64,000 nt of DNA from an uncultured Alphaproteobacteria bacterium. Its GTDB lineage: Bacteria > Pseudomonadota > Alphaproteobacteria > HIMB59 > GCA-002718135. Numbering within the stretch: the first letter of the stretch is position 1; each line of letters starts with the position of its first letter. Made by a program: the position numbers and the translations under genes. Where the stretch lies: contig CACMQB010000001.1 of NCBI GenBank assembly GCA_902615745.1, forward strand, positions 90,349 to 154,348. Direction: 5' to 3'. This document shows positions 49,667 to 58,085 of the stretch, piece by piece. Under the pieces are notes generated by a model. The model had not been told where the DNA came from and searched no databases. It was given only the letters and a program-made list of their open reading frames with translations.

Positions 49667-50413
49667 ATGAAATATATAACTAAATATAAATCCCCAAATT
49701 ATAATTCAAGAAACAGTTCAAAAATACAACTTATTATAATTCATTATACAGCCTTGAAAAATACCTTAGATGCTGTTTCTTATTTATGTAACAAGGAAAA
49801 AAAAGTAAGTTCTCACTATCTAATTTCTCAAAATGGAACTGTTTACAACTTAGTAAAAGATAAATTTAGAGCATGGCATGCGGGACAGGGATTCTGGCAA
49901 GAAATAACGGATATAAATTCTATTTCTATAGGTATTGAGCTTGATTACAATCCGAATGGAAAAAATAATAAATTCTCATTTAAAATGATATATTCACTAA
50001 AAAAACTTATTCTTAAATTACAAAAAAATTATGAAATTAATAAAAATAGTATTCTAGCACATTCAGATATCGCTCCTTTTAGAAAAATCGATCCTGGAAA
50101 AAACTTTCCATGGCAAGAACTCTCTACTTCAAAGTTAATTTTAAATCTAAAAAAACTAAAAAAGGTAGAAATAAAAATTATGGAAAAATGGTTTTATGTC
50201 CATAATTTGAAATCAAAAAAACAAAAAATAATTTTAGCACTATCTTTGATTGGATATGATACGCGTGAAGTCTATAAAAATTCTAAACTTTATAATAAGC
50301 TTATCACCGCATATAGAATTAGATATTTAAATTATGAAGATAAAATCAAAAATAAATCCATATATAATGATTTAATCAAACACTTATTCAATTATATGTT
50401 GACGAAAAAATAA
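49667..50413 (+). CDS. N-acetylmuramoyl-L-alanine amidase (AmpD-like)
   Basis: 248 residues without signal peptide, so probably cytoplasmic. Zinc ligands His26 (IIIHYTA), His132 and Asp142 (AHSDIAPFRKIDPGKNFPW) have the same local spacing as in AmpD (His to Asp ten residues), and YLISQNGTVYNLVKDKFRAWHAG is typical of Amidase_2. It cleaves the lactyl-peptide bond of anhydromuropeptides in recycling. The last about 80 residues resemble a degenerate peptidoglycan-binding domain (IILALSLIGYDT...). It lies just before rnpB, and its 3' end carries the candidate rnpB promoter. Confidence 0.9.
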   Translation: MKYITKYKSPNYNSRNSSKIQLIIIHYTALKNTLDAVSYLCNKEKKVSSHYLISQNGTVYNLVKDKFRAWHAGQGFWQEITDINSISIGIELDYNPNGKNNKFSFKMIYSLKKLILKLQKNYEINKNSILAHSDIAPFRKIDPGKNFPWQELSTSKLILNLKKLKKVEIKIMEKWFYVHNLKSKKQKIILALSLIGYDTREVYKNSKLYNKLITAYRIRYLNYEDKIKNKSIYNDLIKHLFNYMLTKK

Positions 50414-50426: not shown

Positions 50427-50432
50427 GAATTT

Positions 50433-50767
50433 AGATGGTGCGATGATCGCTTGAGTAATCAAGAGGAAAGTCCGGGCTCCACTGGAAAAAAAACCAGGTA
50501 ATACCTGGCAAGTGAAAGCTTAGGGAAAGTGCAACAGAAAATATACCGCCTAAGAAGGTAAGGGTGAAAAGGTAAGGTAAGAGCTTACCGCTTTTTTGGT
50601 AACAAAAAAGGCTTTGCAAACCCTTTTTGGAGCAAGGTCAAATAGGAATAGCAATCAGTTCCAGCTGAGTTATTCGGGTAGACTGCTTGAAACAAATGGT
50701 GACATTTGTTCTAGATTAATGATCATCAATTTTTATTAAATTACAGAACCCGGCTTATGCACCATCT
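50433..50767 (+). ncRNA. rnpB: RNase P RNA (type A)
   Basis: About 335 bases closed by the P1 helix AGATGGTGC (50433-50441) with GCACCATCT (50759-50767). Conserved blocks are present in order: GAGGAAAGTCCGGGC (50463-50477), AGGGAAAGTGCAACAGAAA and ATACCGCC, GGTAAGGGTGAAAAGGT, AGAGCTTACCG, GAGCAAGGTCAAATAGG and the 3' ACAGAACCCGGCTTATGC (near 50742-50760). It is the catalytic subunit that trims tRNA 5' ends. No protein-coding gene is plausible in this stretch. It is flanked by the amidase gene and the dcw operator. Confidence 0.95.
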
Positions 50768-50815
50768 ATAAATTTATTGAGAACATACAAAGAACATTTA
50801 TCATAATTTCATATA

Positions 50816-50850
50816 CCCATTGACGCCCATATAATCCCATGGTAACCCAT
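50816..50850 (-). promoter_or_regulatory. MraZ operator: four direct repeats covering the dcw promoter
   Basis: CCCAT occurs at 50816-50820, 50826-50830, 50836-50840 and 50846-50850, exactly 10 bp apart, so the minus strand reads TGGGN, 5-base spacer, TGGGN four times. That is the repeat architecture known for E. coli MraZ binding sites. A consensus TATAAT lies at 50830-50835 between boxes 2 and 3; a start near 50842 would give a 14-base leader to the mraZ ATG, with no Shine-Dalgarno. MraZ bound here would block RNA polymerase, so the operon is probably autorepressed. The -35 is weak (TTTCAT, 50808-50813 region). Confidence 0.9.
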
Positions 50851-50855
50851 ATTTA

Positions 50856-51311
50856 ATGGATTTATTTGTATCTAAATATATTAATAAAATAGATAAGAAG
50901 GGAAGAGTTTCTCTACCTTCTAGCTTTAGAAATGTACTTCCAAAAGCTAATAGAAATGAAATTATTTTATACAAATCTATTAAAACACCATCTATTGAGG
51001 GCTGTGGTGTTGGAAGATTAAAAGAAATCGCAAAAAGAATTAATAATCTTGATTTTTTTTCCGAAGATTATGACGATTTTTCAACATCAATATTTTCTGA
51101 AATAATTACAACCAATATTGATAAAGAAGGAAGATTTTTAATTCCTGAAGAATTAAAATTATATGCTGGCATTAATACTGAAGCTGCTTTTTTTGGTCAA
51201 GGCCATTACTTTCAAATTTGGGAACCAAAAAAAGGTCTAAAAAATACTGAAGTTTCAAGAATACGTCTTTTAAAAGAAAAAAAATCATTACGAATGATGT
51301 TAACACAATAA
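50856..51311 (+). CDS. mraZ: Transcriptional regulator MraZ
   Basis: 151 residues with two AbrB/SpoVT-like halves: the first with NKIDKKGRVSLPSSFRNVL (near 10) and the second with TTNIDKEGRFLIPEELKLYAGI (near 86), including the conserved DxxGR motif in each. MraZ forms a ring and binds spaced TGGGN repeats to repress the dcw operon. The four-repeat site directly upstream strongly supports autoregulation. The start ATG is preceded by the operator and no Shine-Dalgarno. Confidence 0.95.
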   Translation: MDLFVSKYINKIDKKGRVSLPSSFRNVLPKANRNEIILYKSIKTPSIEGCGVGRLKEIAKRINNLDFFSEDYDDFSTSIFSEIITTNIDKEGRFLIPEELKLYAGINTEAAFFGQGHYFQIWEPKKGLKNTEVSRIRLLKEKKSLRMMLTQ

Positions 51312-51319
51312 AAAATAAT

Positions 51320-52258
51320 ATGAAAAATTTACATAAGTCGGTAATGATAAAAGAAATAATATCCTTTCTGCCAATAACAAAATCAATAAATGTAATAGAT
51401 GCAACTTTTGGTGGTGGCGGTTATTCAAAAACTATCCTTGAAAAATTTAATGTAAATCAATTGTTAGCAATAGATAGAGATCCAATTTCAAAAGTATTTG
51501 CAAAAGAAATAGAATCTAAATTTTCAAATTTTTCTCTAATAAATAATAGATTTAGTAAAATTGAAGAAATAGTAAATAATTCAAAGTTGAAAGAGAAAAA
51601 ATTTGATATAGTTCTTTTCGATATAGGTACAAGTTCAAATCAAATAGATAATGCGCAAAGAGGTTTTTCATTCAACAAATCTGGACCACTTGATATGCGA
51701 ATGGGCTCTTCAGATAAAAATGCTTATGATATAATTAATAATTATGAAGAAAAAAATTTAGCTGATATAATTTATCGATATGGAGAAGAGCGTTATTCAA
51801 GAGTTATTGCAAAAGAAATAGTAAAAAATAGAAAAATAAAATTTATAAATGACACAATAGAATTATCAAACATTATAAAAAAATGTTTACCTAAAAAAAA
51901 TCAATTAAAAAACAAGATTCATCCTGCAACAAAAACATTTCAGGCAATTAGAATTTATGTGAATGATGAGTTAAATGAACTAAAGACGAGTCTAGAAAAA
52001 ACTTTAAAAATTTTAAATAAAGAAGGTTTAATTTTAGTAGTTTCTTTCCAAAGTCTAGAGGATAGAATTGTGAAAGATTTTTTTAACCACAAAAGTGGTA
52101 AACGATGGCGTTCCTCCCGCCACTACCCGGAGTTACCTGATAAACTGGCAACTCAACTTAAAATAATCACCAAAAAACCAATATTGCCATCAGCTTCTGA
52201 GATTTTAGAAAATCCCAGATCTAGATCAGCAAAACTTCGGGTAGCTCAGAAAATTTAA
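51320..52258 (+). CDS. rsmH: 16S rRNA (cytosine1402-N4)-methyltransferase RsmH
   Basis: 312 residues. Begins MKNLHKSVMIKEIISFLP, with the SAM-binding DATFGGGGYSKTIL, LFDIGTSSNQIDNAQRGFSF and the C-terminal IRIYVNDELNELK...VVSFQSLEDRIVK typical of MraW/RsmH. It methylates N4 of C1402 in 16S rRNA. Second gene of the dcw cluster, 8 bases after mraZ. Confidence 0.97.
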   Translation: MKNLHKSVMIKEIISFLPITKSINVIDATFGGGGYSKTILEKFNVNQLLAIDRDPISKVFAKEIESKFSNFSLINNRFSKIEEIVNNSKLKEKKFDIVLFDIGTSSNQIDNAQRGFSFNKSGPLDMRMGSSDKNAYDIINNYEEKNLADIIYRYGEERYSRVIAKEIVKNRKIKFINDTIELSNIIKKCLPKKNQLKNKIHPATKTFQAIRIYVNDELNELKTSLEKTLKILNKEGLILVVSFQSLEDRIVKDFFNHKSGKRWRSSRHYPELPDKLATQLKIITKKPILPSASEILENPRSRSAKLRVAQKI

Positions 52259-52260
52259 TT

Positions 52261-52575
52261 ATGAAGTATACTAAATCAATTATACTCTTCTTAATTTTAA
52301 ATTTGATACTGGTTTTTTCAATGATTTTTATTGCCAACCATACAAGAGAAATCGAAAAAAATAATCATAATTTTAAAGTTAAAATATCTAAAATTTCAGA
52401 AAATTTAAAAATTAATAAAATTGAATTAGCCACTCATCAAAATGGCTCATATTTAAAAACAATGTATAAATTGTATTTTGATGAATCTCAAAATGATAAT
52501 GTTCCTCTTATTGTAAAAATGGAAGAACTTTCAAATCAAGATAAAAATTTAAAACTTGTTAGTTCAAATAATTAA
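52261..52575 (+). CDS. ftsL: Cell division protein FtsL
   Basis: 104 residues with one N-terminal membrane span (about residues 6-27) and a periplasmic coiled coil. Sequence similarity to FtsL is low, as usual, so the call rests on position between rsmH and ftsI, size and topology. FtsL joins FtsB/FtsQ in activating septal peptidoglycan synthesis. It follows rsmH by 2 bases and precedes ftsI by 3. Confidence 0.85.
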   Translation: MKYTKSIILFLILNLILVFSMIFIANHTREIEKNNHNFKVKISKISENLKINKIELATHQNGSYLKTMYKLYFDESQNDNVPLIVKMEELSNQDKNLKLVSSNN

Positions 52576-52578
52576 TTA

Positions 52579-54228
52579 ATGTTAATTAGACTGAAATTAT
52601 TTGATAGTGATTCTTTAAAATTACTTCATAGAAGAGTTTTTTTTTCAATTACAATTTTTATCTTTGTCTATTTTATATCTATTTATAGAATCTCATCAAT
52701 TATGCTCTTTCCTGATTTAATTGAGGATACTAATAATTATGTAAAAAAAGATATTAGGGGCAATATTTATGATAGGAATGGAAATATAATTGCCACCTCA
52801 ATTGAAAGCATCTCTTTATCAATTAATCCTAATAAGATAAGAAACAAAAAAGAACTTTCTAATAAATTGGGATTAATTCTTGATTTAGATATAAAAAAAA
52901 TAGAAAAAAAATTATTATCGACGAGTAAATTCGTTTGGATAAAAAGAAATATATCTCCAATTGAATATCAAGAAATAATTAATCTTGGTGAAATAAATAT
53001 CAAAGCTCACAAGGAATTTAAAAGAATATATCCCTATAAAAATACTTTATCACATATTATTGGGTATGTAGATGTTGATCAGAATGGACAGAGTGGAATT
53101 GAGAGGTATTTTGAAAATGATCTATCAAAATCACAAGACATAACTATTAGTATTGATGCTAATTTACAGCAGTTGGTTAGAGAAAATCTCTTAACAACAA
53201 TAAATAATTACAAAGCTGAATCAGGCTTAGCTATAGTTATGGATATTACTAGCGGACAAATCTTATCATCAGTAAGTTTTCCTGATTATAATCCTGAGGA
53301 CAAATCGTCATTTAATAATAATAATTTAATAAATAGAGTTTTTCAGTCTAATTACGAAATGGGATCAACATTCAAACCAATAACTGCAACTATTGGATTT
53401 GATTTAAATATTTTAGATTCTAAGATGACTTTTGATGTTACAAATAAATATTTAAATATAGGTGATCATGATAAATACAAAGAAAATGGTATTTATGATG
53501 TTGAAAAAATAATTGTTGAATCATCCAACATTGGTACTGCTCAAATTGCTACTTTGATTGGAAAAAAAAATCAAAAAGAATTTTTTAAAAAATTAGGTTT
53601 CGATAAAAAAATAAATATAGAAAACAAAGAAAGTTCACCTCCTTTAGGAAATAAAAACAATTGGGGTAAATTAGAAACAGCAACTATAGGATTTGGTCAT
53701 GGATTTGCAATTACACCTCTTCATTTAGTCAAAGCTTATGCTTCACTGGCAAATAATGGAAACGAAGTTTTCCCTACACTACAATTAAATAAACAATTTC
53801 AACAAAGACAAATTTTAAATAATATAAAATCATCAAAATTCTTTATCAATTTATTAAATTCTGTTGTTCTCAAAACTGAGTATACTGGACCCAGAGTAAA
53901 AGTAGATGGTTATTCTGTAGGAGGTAAAACAGGAACATCAGAATTATTAAATCCAAATGGTGGATATTACAAGGATAGGAACTTAACGTCCTTTATTGGA
54001 ATATTCCCTACAAATAATCCAAAATATGTAGTTTACACTGCTATTGAATATCCAAAAAAAGAAACAGGCACTAAACAAAGAATGACTGGAGCAAGAGTAA
54101 ATGCACCCCTAGTAAAAAATATTATTATAAATATTATAGGTCTTTTTAATATTTCAAAAGATAAAAATGATGAACTTCTAAAAGTAGACACAAATTTTTT
54201 ATATAGAAAATTAAATGCTACTATCTAA
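52579..54228 (+). CDS. ftsI: Septal peptidoglycan transpeptidase FtsI (PBP3)
   Basis: 549 residues with a single N-terminal membrane span (about 18-37), a non-catalytic pedestal (DIRGNIYDRNGNIIATS) and a penicillin-binding transpeptidase domain: SxxK at Ser263-Lys266 (MGSTFKP), SSN in VESSNIGTAQ, and KTG at Lys450 (GGKTGTSELL). It crosslinks septal peptidoglycan in complex with FtsW. It overlaps murE by 14 bases. Confidence 0.96.
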   Translation: MLIRLKLFDSDSLKLLHRRVFFSITIFIFVYFISIYRISSIMLFPDLIEDTNNYVKKDIRGNIYDRNGNIIATSIESISLSINPNKIRNKKELSNKLGLILDLDIKKIEKKLLSTSKFVWIKRNISPIEYQEIINLGEINIKAHKEFKRIYPYKNTLSHIIGYVDVDQNGQSGIERYFENDLSKSQDITISIDANLQQLVRENLLTTINNYKAESGLAIVMDITSGQILSSVSFPDYNPEDKSSFNNNNLINRVFQSNYEMGSTFKPITATIGFDLNILDSKMTFDVTNKYLNIGDHDKYKENGIYDVEKIIVESSNIGTAQIATLIGKKNQKEFFKKLGFDKKINIENKESSPPLGNKNNWGKLETATIGFGHGFAITPLHLVKAYASLANNGNEVFPTLQLNKQFQQRQILNNIKSSKFFINLLNSVVLKTEYTGPRVKVDGYSVGGKTGTSELLNPNGGYYKDRNLTSFIGIFPTNNPKYVVYTAIEYPKKETGTKQRMTGARVNAPLVKNIIINIIGLFNISKDKNDELLKVDTNFLYRKLNATI

Positions 54229-55633
54229 TTTATCAAAAGTTATAACTGTAAATAAAACATACAATTTTTATAAAAATAAATATTTCTCTGCAATTACTTC
54301 AAATTCAAAATTTACTAATAACAAAACGCTGTTTGTTTATGACAAAAATACAAAGGTAAAAAAGATTTATTTAGACGAAGCACTTAAGAATAAAACCCCT
54401 GCTATAATTTCTAATAAATATATTAATAATTTAAAAATTCCTCAATTTCTTGTATCTAATATTAATTTAGAGACCTATTCTTTATTAAATAAGCTTCATA
54501 ATAATCTTCCCTTTAAAACTCTAGCAGTTACGGGTACAAATGGAAAGACATCAGTTGTTTGGTATATTTCAAAAATTCTTAATTCACTAAAATATAACAA
54601 TATAACGGTAGGAACCTTGGGACATTTTATAAACGGAAAAAAAATAAATAATATAAATTTAACAACTCCTGCCTATGAGGAATTATTTAAATATGGATCT
54701 TCGAATAAAAAACAAAAAAATATTTACATTTTTGAAGCTTCAAGTCATGCCTTAGAACAAAACAGGTTAAGAAATTATCCTATAAATATTGCAGCTATTA
54801 CAAATATTTCCAGAGATCATCTTGATTACCATAAAACATTCTCAAATTATAAAAAATCTAAAATTAAACTTTTTACTAATCATTTAGAAAGTAGTGGATT
54901 TGCTATAATTAATTCAAGGTTAAAAATCTCAACAGAATTAAAAAAAAAATTAATAAAAAAAAATGTAAAATTAAAATATTTTGGAAATAAAAGTATAAAA
55001 TTAATAAAAATCAAAGATTTTGTATATTTAAACATCAATAATAAAAAATATAAACTGAAAGATCTCAAACTTAAAACAAATATAGAATTAGAAAATTTAG
55101 AATGTGCCATTACTTGTTGTTTAGCACTTAATATTAGTAAAAACAAAATCATAAAAGTATTATCAAAAGTTACTAATCCTTCAGGTCGCCTAGAAACAAT
55201 TGAATATAAGAAAAAAAAATCAAAAATTATTATTGATTATGCACATACACCAGATGCTTTAAAAAAAATACTTCTTGCATATAAAATCAAAAAATTAAAA
55301 CCAGCAATTTTATTTGGTTGTGGGGGTGATAGAGATAAAAGTAAGCGAAAATCAATGGCATTAATTGCAAATAAATATGCTGGTAAAATTTATATAACGG
55401 ATGACAATCCTAGAAATGAAAATCCATCTAAAATAAGAAAAAATATCTTAAAATATTGTCCTAGAGCTATTGAAGTATCTGATAGAAGAAAAGCAATTAA
55501 AGTAGCTATCAAAGAATTAAAAATGAATGAAATTTTAATAGTAGCAGGAAAGGGGCACGAAAAATTTCAAATTTTAAAAAATAAAACAATTAAGTTTGAT
55601 GACTTTAAAGTTGTGAAAGAATTATTAAATTAA
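54215..55633 (+). CDS. murE: UDP-N-acetylmuramoyl-tripeptide synthetase MurE (meso-DAP-adding)
   Basis: 472 residues. P-loop TGTNGKTSVVW (near 108), carbamylated-Lys region typical of Mur ligases, and Asp397-Asn-Pro-Arg400 (DNPRNENP), the motif associated with meso-diaminopimelate rather than lysine. It adds the third amino acid to UDP-MurNAc-Ala-Glu in the cytoplasm. The protein is very Lys/Asn/Ile-rich. It shares one base with murF. Confidence 0.95.
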   Translation: MLLSNLSKVITVNKTYNFYKNKYFSAITSNSKFTNNKTLFVYDKNTKVKKIYLDEALKNKTPAIISNKYINNLKIPQFLVSNINLETYSLLNKLHNNLPFKTLAVTGTNGKTSVVWYISKILNSLKYNNITVGTLGHFINGKKINNINLTTPAYEELFKYGSSNKKQKNIYIFEASSHALEQNRLRNYPINIAAITNISRDHLDYHKTFSNYKKSKIKLFTNHLESSGFAIINSRLKISTELKKKLIKKNVKLKYFGNKSIKLIKIKDFVYLNINNKKYKLKDLKLKTNIELENLECAITCCLALNISKNKIIKVLSKVTNPSGRLETIEYKKKKSKIIIDYAHTPDALKKILLAYKIKKLKPAILFGCGGDRDKSKRKSMALIANKYAGKIYITDDNPRNENPSKIRKNILKYCPRAIEVSDRRKAIKVAIKELKMNEILIVAGKGHEKFQILKNKTIKFDDFKVVKELLN

Positions 55634-57000
55634 TGATCGAATCAAATAAATTAGAAAAATATATAATATCTAAAAAAGATAAAATTAAAATATCAAGTAA
55701 AGATATTAAAAGTGGCGATATATTCCTTGCTTTAAAAGGTAGAAGATTTCATGGAAATAAATTCATAAATGAAGCAATAAATAAAGGTGCAAGATTTTGT
55801 ATAACTGATAAGAAAAATTTTAAAGCGAATAAAAAAATTTTATATGTAGATAATATTTATAAATATCTTTCAGAAATAGCAAAAAGAAAGCGAGATTTAT
55901 ATAAAGGTAAAGTAATAGGTATTACTGGCAGCGCCGGTAAAACAACTTTAAAAGAAACCCTAGCATTTTTCTTAAAAAAAGATCATATCATTTCTTACTC
56001 AAAGAAAAGTTATAATAATCATTTAGGTGTATTAATATCTTTACTAAATTTAAATTTAAAATCGAATTTTGCAATTTTTGAAATTGGAACAAATAATTTT
56101 GGTGAGATAAAAATTCTTAGTAATTTAGTTAAGCCATCAGAAGTATTTATTACTAATATACAATCTACACATCTTGAAAATTTCCAAACTAAAAACAATA
56201 TTGCCAGAGAAAAATCTGATATTTTTATTTCAAAACATAATAATAATAGACAAAAGCTATATCTAAATGTTTCATCTAAATCCGAAAAAATTTTAATTAC
56301 AAAGGCTAAAAAAGAAAAAAATCTAAAAATAATTCGTATTGATAATTTTTCAAAAAATTATTTTATTAAAAAAATATCTCCTTTTAAAAAAATTTATAAA
56401 GTAACTTTATCAATTAATAAAAAACTTATTAATATTATTACTAAAGTAGTAGTAATGCATAGATTAAATAATTTATTATTTTGTCTTGCATTTTATAATG
56501 AAAATTCTTTAAATATTAAATCAGTTGTAAATCGTTTCAAGTTTTTAAAACCAGTTGAAGGTAGGGGGTTAGTTCATAAAATTTCTTTAAATAATAAAAA
56601 AATAAATATTATTGATGAATCTTATAATGCTAATCCAGATACAATGATGCAAAGTATACAAAACTTAAATAACATAAAATTAAATAATAATAAAAAAATA
56701 ATAATAATTGGAACGATGAATGAACTGGGAAATAATTCTTATAAAATTCATTATAAATTACTAAGACAATTAGATGACAATATTTTTAAATTTGTAATTT
56801 TATGTGGCGAATTCTTTGAATTATCTATAAAAAATTTTTTAAATCCAAAAAATGAATTTATCTATTTTAAAAATACAAATAAAATCATGCGATTTTTAGA
56901 AGATAAAGTGCATAATAATGACATTATTTTAATTAAATGTTCTAATTCAACAAAAATAAATAAGTTTGCAAAAACATTATTAAAGCAGGTATCGATTTGA
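55633..57000 (+). CDS. murF: UDP-N-acetylmuramoyl-tripeptide-D-alanyl-D-alanine ligase MurF
   Basis: 455 residues. N-terminal SGDIFLALKGRRFHGNKFI, P-loop ITGSAGKTTLKE (near 96), and IDESYNANPDTMMQSIQNL in the C-terminal half, all MurF signatures. It adds D-Ala-D-Ala to make the pentapeptide precursor. Its TGA stop is contained in a TTGA that also supplies the mraY TTG start. Confidence 0.95.
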   Translation: MIESNKLEKYIISKKDKIKISSKDIKSGDIFLALKGRRFHGNKFINEAINKGARFCITDKKNFKANKKILYVDNIYKYLSEIAKRKRDLYKGKVIGITGSAGKTTLKETLAFFLKKDHIISYSKKSYNNHLGVLISLLNLNLKSNFAIFEIGTNNFGEIKILSNLVKPSEVFITNIQSTHLENFQTKNNIAREKSDIFISKHNNNRQKLYLNVSSKSEKILITKAKKEKNLKIIRIDNFSKNYFIKKISPFKKIYKVTLSINKKLINIITKVVVMHRLNNLLFCLAFYNENSLNIKSVVNRFKFLKPVEGRGLVHKISLNNKKINIIDESYNANPDTMMQSIQNLNNIKLNNNKKIIIIGTMNELGNNSYKIHYKLLRQLDDNIFKFVILCGEFFELSIKNFLNPKNEFIYFKNTNKIMRFLEDKVHNNDIILIKCSNSTKINKFAKTLLKQVSI

Positions 57001-58085
57001 TTAAATATTTAGCCTTTGAATACCAATCTTTATTTAGTTTTCTAAATATTTTTAGCTATATAACATTCAGAGCTGGCGCTTCTGTTCTTACCGGATTATT
57101 TTTTTCTCTAATATTTGGAAATTATATTATTAATAAATTATCTAATATTCAACCAACTGGCCAGCCAATAAGAGATGACGGTCCGGAGTCACATTTAATT
57201 GCAAAAAAAGGTACTCCTACAATGGGTGGATTATTGATTATTCTAAGTGTTTTTGTCTCCACCATTATTTGGGGTGATTTACAAAATATTTTTATATGGA
57301 TTTTACTTTTAACTATTTTGATTTTTGGATCTATTGGTTTTGCAGACGATTACAAAAAAATAAAATCAAATACAAGTGAGGGTATTTCATCAAAAATAAG
57401 AATTATATTTCAAATTATTTTTTCATTTTTCATTACATATTTAATTCTGATTAATTTAGATCCAAGCATAAGCAAATCTATGACATTTCCTTTCTTTAAA
57501 AATTTAATTATAGATTTTGGAATATTCTATTTTCTAATTTCCATATTTATAATTATTGGATCGGCTAATGCAGTAAACTTAACTGATGGGCTTGATGGTT
57601 TAGCAATTGTCCCTGTAATGATTGTTGCTATGTCATTTGCATTCATAGCTTATGTTTCAGGTAATATAGTTTTTTCTAATTATTTACTTATCCAATATAT
57701 TCCTGGAACTGGTGAATTAGCAGTTTTTTGTGGCTCTTTAATTGGAGCTGCTTTAGGTTTTCTATGGTTTAATGCACCGCCTGCTAAAGTTTTTATGGGT
57801 GATACTGGATCTTTAGCATTGGGTGGATCTTTAGGCTCAATAGCGATAATATGCAAACATGAAATTCTTCTTGCAATAATAGGAGGGTTATTTGTTCTAG
57901 AAACCTTGTCTGTTGTAATCCAAGTATTTATTTTTAAAATGACAGGAAAAAGAGTATTTTTAATGGCTCCACTACATCACCATTTTGAAAAAAAGGGATG
58001 GCATGAGTCAACAATAGTTATTCGTTTTTGGATAATTACTATTGTATTAGCTTTGATAGGCTTAGCTACTTTAAGAATAAGATAA
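56997..58085 (+). CDS. mraY: Phospho-N-acetylmuramoyl-pentapeptide transferase MraY
   Basis: 362 residues, polytopic. The start is TTG (56997-56999); the resulting MIKYLAFEYQSLF aligns with the N-terminus of E. coli MraY, while the next ATG is far inside. Conserved are FRAGASVLTGLFFSLIFG, DDGPESHLIAKKGTPTMGG, NLTDGLDGLAI and GDTGSLALGG, and PLHHHFEKKGW. It makes lipid I from undecaprenyl phosphate. The stop overlaps the murD ATG by one base. Confidence 0.96.
   Translation: MIKYLAFEYQSLFSFLNIFSYITFRAGASVLTGLFFSLIFGNYIINKLSNIQPTGQPIRDDGPESHLIAKKGTPTMGGLLIILSVFVSTIIWGDLQNIFIWILLLTILIFGSIGFADDYKKIKSNTSEGISSKIRIIFQIIFSFFITYLILINLDPSISKSMTFPFFKNLIIDFGIFYFLISIFIIIGSANAVNLTDGLDGLAIVPVMIVAMSFAFIAYVSGNIVFSNYLLIQYIPGTGELAVFCGSLIGAALGFLWFNAPPAKVFMGDTGSLALGGSLGSIAIICKHEILLAIIGGLFVLETLSVVIQVFIFKMTGKRVFLMAPLHHHFEKKGWHESTIVIRFWIITIVLALIGLATLRIR

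Follow-up and report, generated by a model that had tools for sequence, protein, structure and literature searches.

A putative LexA box beside a MraZ box array threaded through the predicted mraZ promoter of a streamlined alphaproteobacterium

MraZ operators and LexA links at mraZ

The MraZ operator of Escherichia coli, Pmra, consists of direct TGGG repeats with a 10-bp period that precede mraZ, the gene heading the dcw operon, and the E. coli protein carries the same DxxGR motifs as the MraZ considered here. Pmra comprises three boxes with TGGG on the coding strand, which lie 3' of the -10 and are followed by a longer leader, whereas the boxes described below are in reverse orientation, are threaded from -35 to -10 and leave almost no leader. 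In Burkholderia cenocepacia, PmraBc carries four repeats, each made of a 7-nt unit and a 3-nt spacer, and MraZ binding to them was detected by gel shift (PMC7761207). It shares the four repeats and the 10-bp period with the present locus, but its repeats lie 3' of the -10 and extend over the start site, and no LexA box is described in the excerpted text of that paper. Direct repeats also precede mraZ in mollicutes, where the box differs (AAAGTG[T/G]) and where, according to the excerpted part of the source, the mraZ promoter of M. genitalium is the only MraZ site in the genome and no LexA input is described (PMC8475190).

A connection between LexA and this operon has been drawn in other bacteria. 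In gut Firmicutes, mraZ is a candidate SOS gene and one Firmicute site is bound by Bacillus subtilis LexA in vitro (PMC3998124), and LexA boxes are mentioned in the 5' region of the E. coli dcw cluster (PMC3265435). These cases concern other LexA motifs and phyla than the direct repeat GAACN7GAAC that stands beside the MraZ array here. The reported alphaproteobacterial LexA motif is GTTC-N7-GTTC, which reads GAACN7GAAC on the other strand (PMC8565304; excerpted text of PMC12700426). The Caulobacter LexA regulon is defined by this same box, and the excerpt of PMC12700426 names lexA, recA and translesion-polymerase genes as its targets; neither mraZ nor dcw occurs in that excerpt, nor were they returned by a term search of the main text of Caulobacter LexA papers.

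The locus analyzed here lies in a 64,000-nucleotide stretch of DNA (the window, 28.8% GC) from an uncultured marine alphaproteobacterium, probably a member of the HIMB59/AEGEAN-169 group, with a genome of 1.48 Mb, in keeping with the streamlined alphaproteobacterium envisaged by the initial annotation. The mraZ product (Table 1) contains both DxxGR DNA-binding motifs, DKKGR and DKEGR, and its R17 aligns with R15 of E. coli MraZ. Similar amidase-rnpB-mraZ orders are found in other alphaproteobacteria (class loci L177, L181, and L184), and the ftsL-like small ORF of the dcw operon had no family match in the Pfam comparison. Judged from its sequence, the region 5' of mraZ probably controls the dcw operon through two inputs, namely a promoter threaded with MraZ boxes and a LexA box.

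The named relatives of this bacterium are uncultured marine alphaproteobacterial genomes and MarineAlpha5 bins. In the comparisons below, the genus sample comprises genomes of the same genus with mraZ plus upstream sequence and yields 63 distinct upstream sequences, the class sample comprises 70 loci, one per genome, from a class-wide alphaproteobacterial draw, and the sister family includes one single-contig genome of 1.41 Mb.

Table 1. Features in and around the mraZ control region, in window positions.
Feature	Position	Strand	Remarks
N-acetylmuramoyl-L-alanine amidase gene	49667..50413	+	PF01510, E 5.7e-29
rnpB (RNase P RNA)	50431..50773	+	Rfam RF00010, 307.9 bits; directly 5' of the control region
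Putative LexA (SOS) box, GAACN7GAAC, GAACATACAAAGAAC	50781..50795	+	Same word at lexA, recA, umuDC and ribonucleotide reductase of the genome
MraZ box 1 (CCCA)	50816..50819	-	5' of the -35
Predicted -35, TTGACG (array spacer 1)	50820..50825	+	Invariant in 63/63 genus sequences
MraZ box 2 (CCCA)	50826..50829	-	Within the promoter spacer
TATAAT (array spacer 2)	50830..50835	+	Initially annotated as the -10; read here as promoter spacer, possible minor promoter
MraZ box 3 (CCCA)	50836..50839	-	Within the promoter spacer
Predicted extended -10: TG (50840-50841), G, TAACCC (50843-50848)	50840..50848	+	17 bp from the -35
MraZ box 4 (CCCA)	50846..50849	-	Overlaps the second half of the -10
Predicted transcription start, 50855 +/- 1	50854..50856	+	From the position of the -10
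mraZ, 151 aa	50856..51311	+	PF02381, E 1.8e-12; matches MraZ structures 1n0e and 9qlr
Continuation of the dcw operon: rsmH, ftsL-like small ORF, ftsI, murE, murF, mraY	51320..58085	+	Pfam families

The MraZ box array and the promoter predicted within it

Directly upstream of mraZ, four CCCA units (TGGG on the minus strand) follow one another at an exact 10-bp period (region sequence CCCAttgacgCCCAtataatCCCAtggtaaCCCAtatttaATGG). The array proper (50816-50850, CCCAttgacgCCCAtataatCCCAtggtaaCCCAt) ends with a T five bases before the ATG. Both the spacing and the end point had been noted initially and hold, and the gene that follows is a genuine mraZ heading the dcw genes. Over both strands of the window, the strict four-box pattern is matched a single time, where about 4e-6 occurrences would be expected in the whole 1.5-Mb genome, and the only perfect three-box matches genome-wide are the two overlapping ones within it. 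Candidates for further MraZ sites were set aside, as the next best carry two mismatches in three boxes and the total of 18, against 7 for the reversed control, is a modest excess. With at least three TGGG boxes at a 10-bp period, a cognate MraZ bearing both DxxGR motifs and a site kept in relatives, the proposed reading of the minus-strand repeats as a MraZ operator is supported. Such an array is in itself of a known kind and routine. The suggested E. coli-type layout does not apply, since the boxes lie on the opposite strand and are interleaved with the core promoter.

The boxes, their positions and their conservation emerge directly from sequence comparison. The search for the periodic array in related genomes, which had been suggested as a check, recovered all four boxes at the 10-bp period in 62 of the 63 genus sequences, the exception being locus L113, where box 2 reads ACCA. 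Across the 70 class loci, the longest CCCA chain 5' of mraZ comprises five boxes in 2 loci, four in 26, three in 18 and two in 17. Four boxes are thus the commonest count among the alphaproteobacteria sampled, and the number is ordinary rather than unusual, as had first been thought. The composite pattern CCCATTGACnCCCATnnnnTCCCATGnTATCCCA, allowing at most two mismatches, is present in 86 of 385 alphaproteobacterial genomes, once in each, with no match to the reversed-pattern control. Variants of the array include a degenerate box, ACCA, located 10 bp past the last CCCA and overlapping the start codon as ACCATG in loci L106-L113 and L116-L135 (the sister family and apparently several diverged genus members). 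The Rickettsiaceae loci L092-L094 and L096 have just two CCCA boxes in the 95 bp covered 5' of mraZ; these stand about 60-90 bp from the gene start and have a TnnTAA spacer. The column 14 bases 5' of the first CCCA, which falls between the LexA box and the array, is split evenly between A, C, T and G over the 63 genus sequences, while its neighbors are strongly A/T.

The spacers of the array hold a predicted core promoter of the housekeeping type, TTGACG-17-TAACCC, in which TTGAC and the -10 stand 16-18 bp apart and the -10 carries a TG extension (TGGTAACCC) and lacks the T at -7. In the genus, TTGACG, TG and TAACCC are invariant and TTGAC-N15-TGnTA is present in 63 of 63 sequences; spacer 3 (TGATAA) is constant save for its third base, a G in the window, whereas spacer 2 (TATAAT) is variable at its middle positions. 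A -10 is not expected to vary more than its surroundings, and spacer 2 does, so that the constancy of spacers 1 and 3 needed an explanation. In the class sample, TTGAC-N15-TGnTA is found in 34 of 70 loci and the N16 version in 17, with none at other spacings between 10 and 21 and about 0.5 in shuffles. When the first element is relaxed to TTGA, either spacing is found in 57 of the 70 loci, and 37 of the 39 matches to TTGA-N16-TGnTA share one register with the MraZ boxes. By this comparison, TTGAC-17/18-(TGn)TAt is a predicted class-wide promoter, a -35 plus extended -10 (TGnTAT) interleaved with MraZ boxes.

The initial annotation had placed the -10 at TATAAT, covered by the repeats. The hexamer is present and perfect. 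Read as the -10, it would be preceded at 16 bp by a poor -35 (TTCATA) and followed by a 14-nt leader, with MraZ boxes on either side, and no other element would matter. Its positions 1, 2 and 6 (T, A, and T), which are key to a -10, are each shared by 62 of the 63 sequences of the genus. The sister family has an invariant TATAAT, preceded at a distance of 17 bp by TTTACT or a close variant. The conservation in the genus might reflect a second promoter, though the T-flanks also belong to the MraZ box. The usual T at -7 missing from TAACCC is a further point against the promoter preferred here. Nevertheless, the genus has no clearly conserved -35 at 16-18 bp from TATAAT, conservation is stronger in its spacers 1 and 3 than in the hexamer, and class members often have TCTCAT, TGCCAT or GTTTTC in spacer 2 (TAnnnT in 17 of 36), whereas TTGAC and TGnTA hold their spacing. 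Conservation at both levels thus weakens TATAAT as the main -10: the class promoter is practically invariant in the genus while TATAAT drifts, and a -10 at TATAAT is considered rather unlikely. Only in the sister family does the hexamer qualify clearly as a -10, and there the reading holds; here it probably does not.

Moving the -10 from TATAAT to TAACCC shortens the predicted leader from 14 nt to about 0-1 nt, and the mraZ message is predicted to be leaderless. The near-leaderless dcw message proposed initially is thereby supported as a prediction, while the leader of about 14 bases is not borne out. In the genus, the first T of the -10 and the start codon are 13 nt apart in 51 of the 63 sequences, compared with 30-194 nt across class members, which suggests an almost complete loss of the leader in this lineage. 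The sister family has a promoter of the form TTTACT (or a close variant)-17-TATAAT, which predicts a leader of about 7 nt. The absence of a Shine-Dalgarno sequence before mraZ, also remarked on at first, is real and says little, because such motifs are scarce across the window (an SD-like 4-mer in 8 of 50 genes versus 5.1 in shuffles). A five-codon upstream ORF (ATGGTAACCCATATTTAA) runs into the mraZ start, the two overlapping in TAATG; since relatives such as L040 lack its stop, it is treated as a coincidence. At the lexA loci of the genus (L225-L274), 2-6 nt separate the end of the LexA box from the start codon and the operator contains a -10-like TATATA, so this gene also looks leaderless from its sequence.

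A putative LexA box between rnpB and the array

Outside the stretch covered by the initial annotation (50811-50855), and missed there, a GAAC-N7-GAAC direct repeat lies between rnpB and the array, 8 bp past the rnpB 3' end, 20 bp 5' of the array and 24 bp 5' of the -35. It matches the alphaproteobacterial LexA box and stands in a promoter region, and the genome encodes a LexA with the box at its own gene. The LexA regulon of this genome was judged from pattern matches with their flanks. GAACN7GAAC occurs 17 times in the whole genome versus 15 times for the reversed control, and since this density does not exceed the control, the signal lies in position and not in number: 12 occurrences fall within ORFs, and the remaining five, all intergenic, lie at lexA, recA, umuDC, ribonucleotide reductase and mraZ. 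The ribonucleotide reductase box (L148, G000:C4 near 8388) lies between that gene and a divergent response-regulator gene, and its position suggests SOS control of one or both.

Within the genus, the box is found at lexA in 50 of 50 loci and at umuD in 20 of 20. At mraZ it is perfect in 57 of the 63 sequences and has one mismatch in the other 6, the chance of a perfect box there being 0.0005 in shuffles. The second half-site of the mraZ box has decayed to AAAC or CAAC in the diverged genus members L108, L109 and L111-L114, while no mismatch is seen in the lexA and umuD boxes sampled from the same part of the genus. In the stretch examined, the sister family has rnpB-mraZ and no LexA box.

In the class sample, 24 LexA boxes within 350 bp 5' of mraZ were found in 22 of the 70 other alphaproteobacterial genomes, where 0.4 would be expected from five control patterns and 0.62 from shuffles; counts in other bins are close to controls. 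These 22 genomes span about 18 families by their family labels, and the remaining 48 have no box within the stretch examined. A clear LexA is encoded in 22 of 22 box-bearing genomes, and the box is present in 0 of 15 genomes without one (Fisher p 0.0017, uncorrected for phylogeny). The distance between box and -35 is 26-202 bp across the class. Wherever rnpB is visible upstream (L164, L173, L177, L181, L182, L183, and L184), the box lies between rnpB and mraZ, no convincing gene separates it from mraZ, and only spurious-looking ORFs occupy the rnpB-mraZ gap that holds it in L173, L177, L181, L183 and L184. Loci L177 and L181, from one family, carry two LexA boxes about 76 bp apart, at about 250 and 326 bp 5' of mraZ.

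The proximity of the repeat to the rnpB 3' end and its variable distance from the promoter in the class would also fit a remnant of rnpB 3' processing or the site of another regulator. This origin appears very unlikely in view of the recurrence of the word at lexA, recA and umuDC in this genome and its constancy at lexA and umuD in the genus, the restriction of class boxes to genomes with LexA, the sister family in which rnpB precedes mraZ without the box, and the match to the reported motif (PMC8565304).

Proposed control of the dcw operon

A MraZ ring bound along one helix face, as the 10-bp period would allow, would mask the core promoter in its entirety and keep RNA polymerase out, whereby MraZ would repress its own operon; steric repression, raised in the initial annotation, is supported by the layout as the likely mode of MraZ action. 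Transcription would start at the mraZ ATG or one base before it, giving a leaderless message. The LexA box upstream of the -35 would make mraZ, and with it the dcw genes that follow, part of the SOS regulon. From its position it is inferred that LexA bound there may hold part of operon transcription off until DNA damage, and that its cleavage would then raise mraZ and dcw transcription by freeing either the main promoter or a weak one overlapping the box. The additional MraZ might subsequently damp the operon again, which is speculation.

Because the box does not lie on the promoter, either here or in the class, repression of the main promoter by LexA is not obvious. LexA may instead act on a separate weak promoter overlapping the box (TTGAGA at 50777 and TATCAT at 50799-50804), giving a longer, SOS-only transcript through the MraZ array and leaving the leaderless promoter independent of LexA. 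The pair matches the consensus at 10 of 12 positions in a scan, the LexA box abuts a -10-like hexamer at umuD and ribonucleotide reductase as well, and the distance to the main -35 would be accommodated. On the other hand, within the genus there is no clear conservation of the hexamers, with TAnnnT present after the box in 34 of 63 sequences, and AT-rich DNA gives such matches by chance, 7 having been found versus 6.6 in shuffles. They were thus not retained as an upstream promoter and are kept only as a rival account of the LexA response, one regarded as quite possible, if somewhat short of an even chance. In the broader proposal, the entire dcw operon would be under direct LexA control in many alphaproteobacterial families, exerted from a conserved box next to the MraZ-threaded promoter, and DNA damage would change division and cell-wall transcription and the MraZ level without a dedicated division inhibitor; this is seen as an even call.

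Both the reverse-oriented, threaded promoter layout and an alphaproteobacterial LexA box at mraZ appear to be undescribed in the open-access literature searched, in which no paper naming alphaproteobacterial LexA at mraZ was found. The threaded promoter offers a clear model of MraZ repression, and in this genus the leader appears to have shrunk to almost nothing in a streamlined genome with all regulatory sites kept. If LexA control is true, Alphaproteobacteria would be a third major lineage with a link between LexA and mraZ or dcw, based on a different LexA motif. The LexA box by the array suggests that the SOS response reaches the master division and cell-wall operon across much of the Alphaproteobacteria, as has been proposed with unrelated motifs for Firmicutes and E. 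coli.
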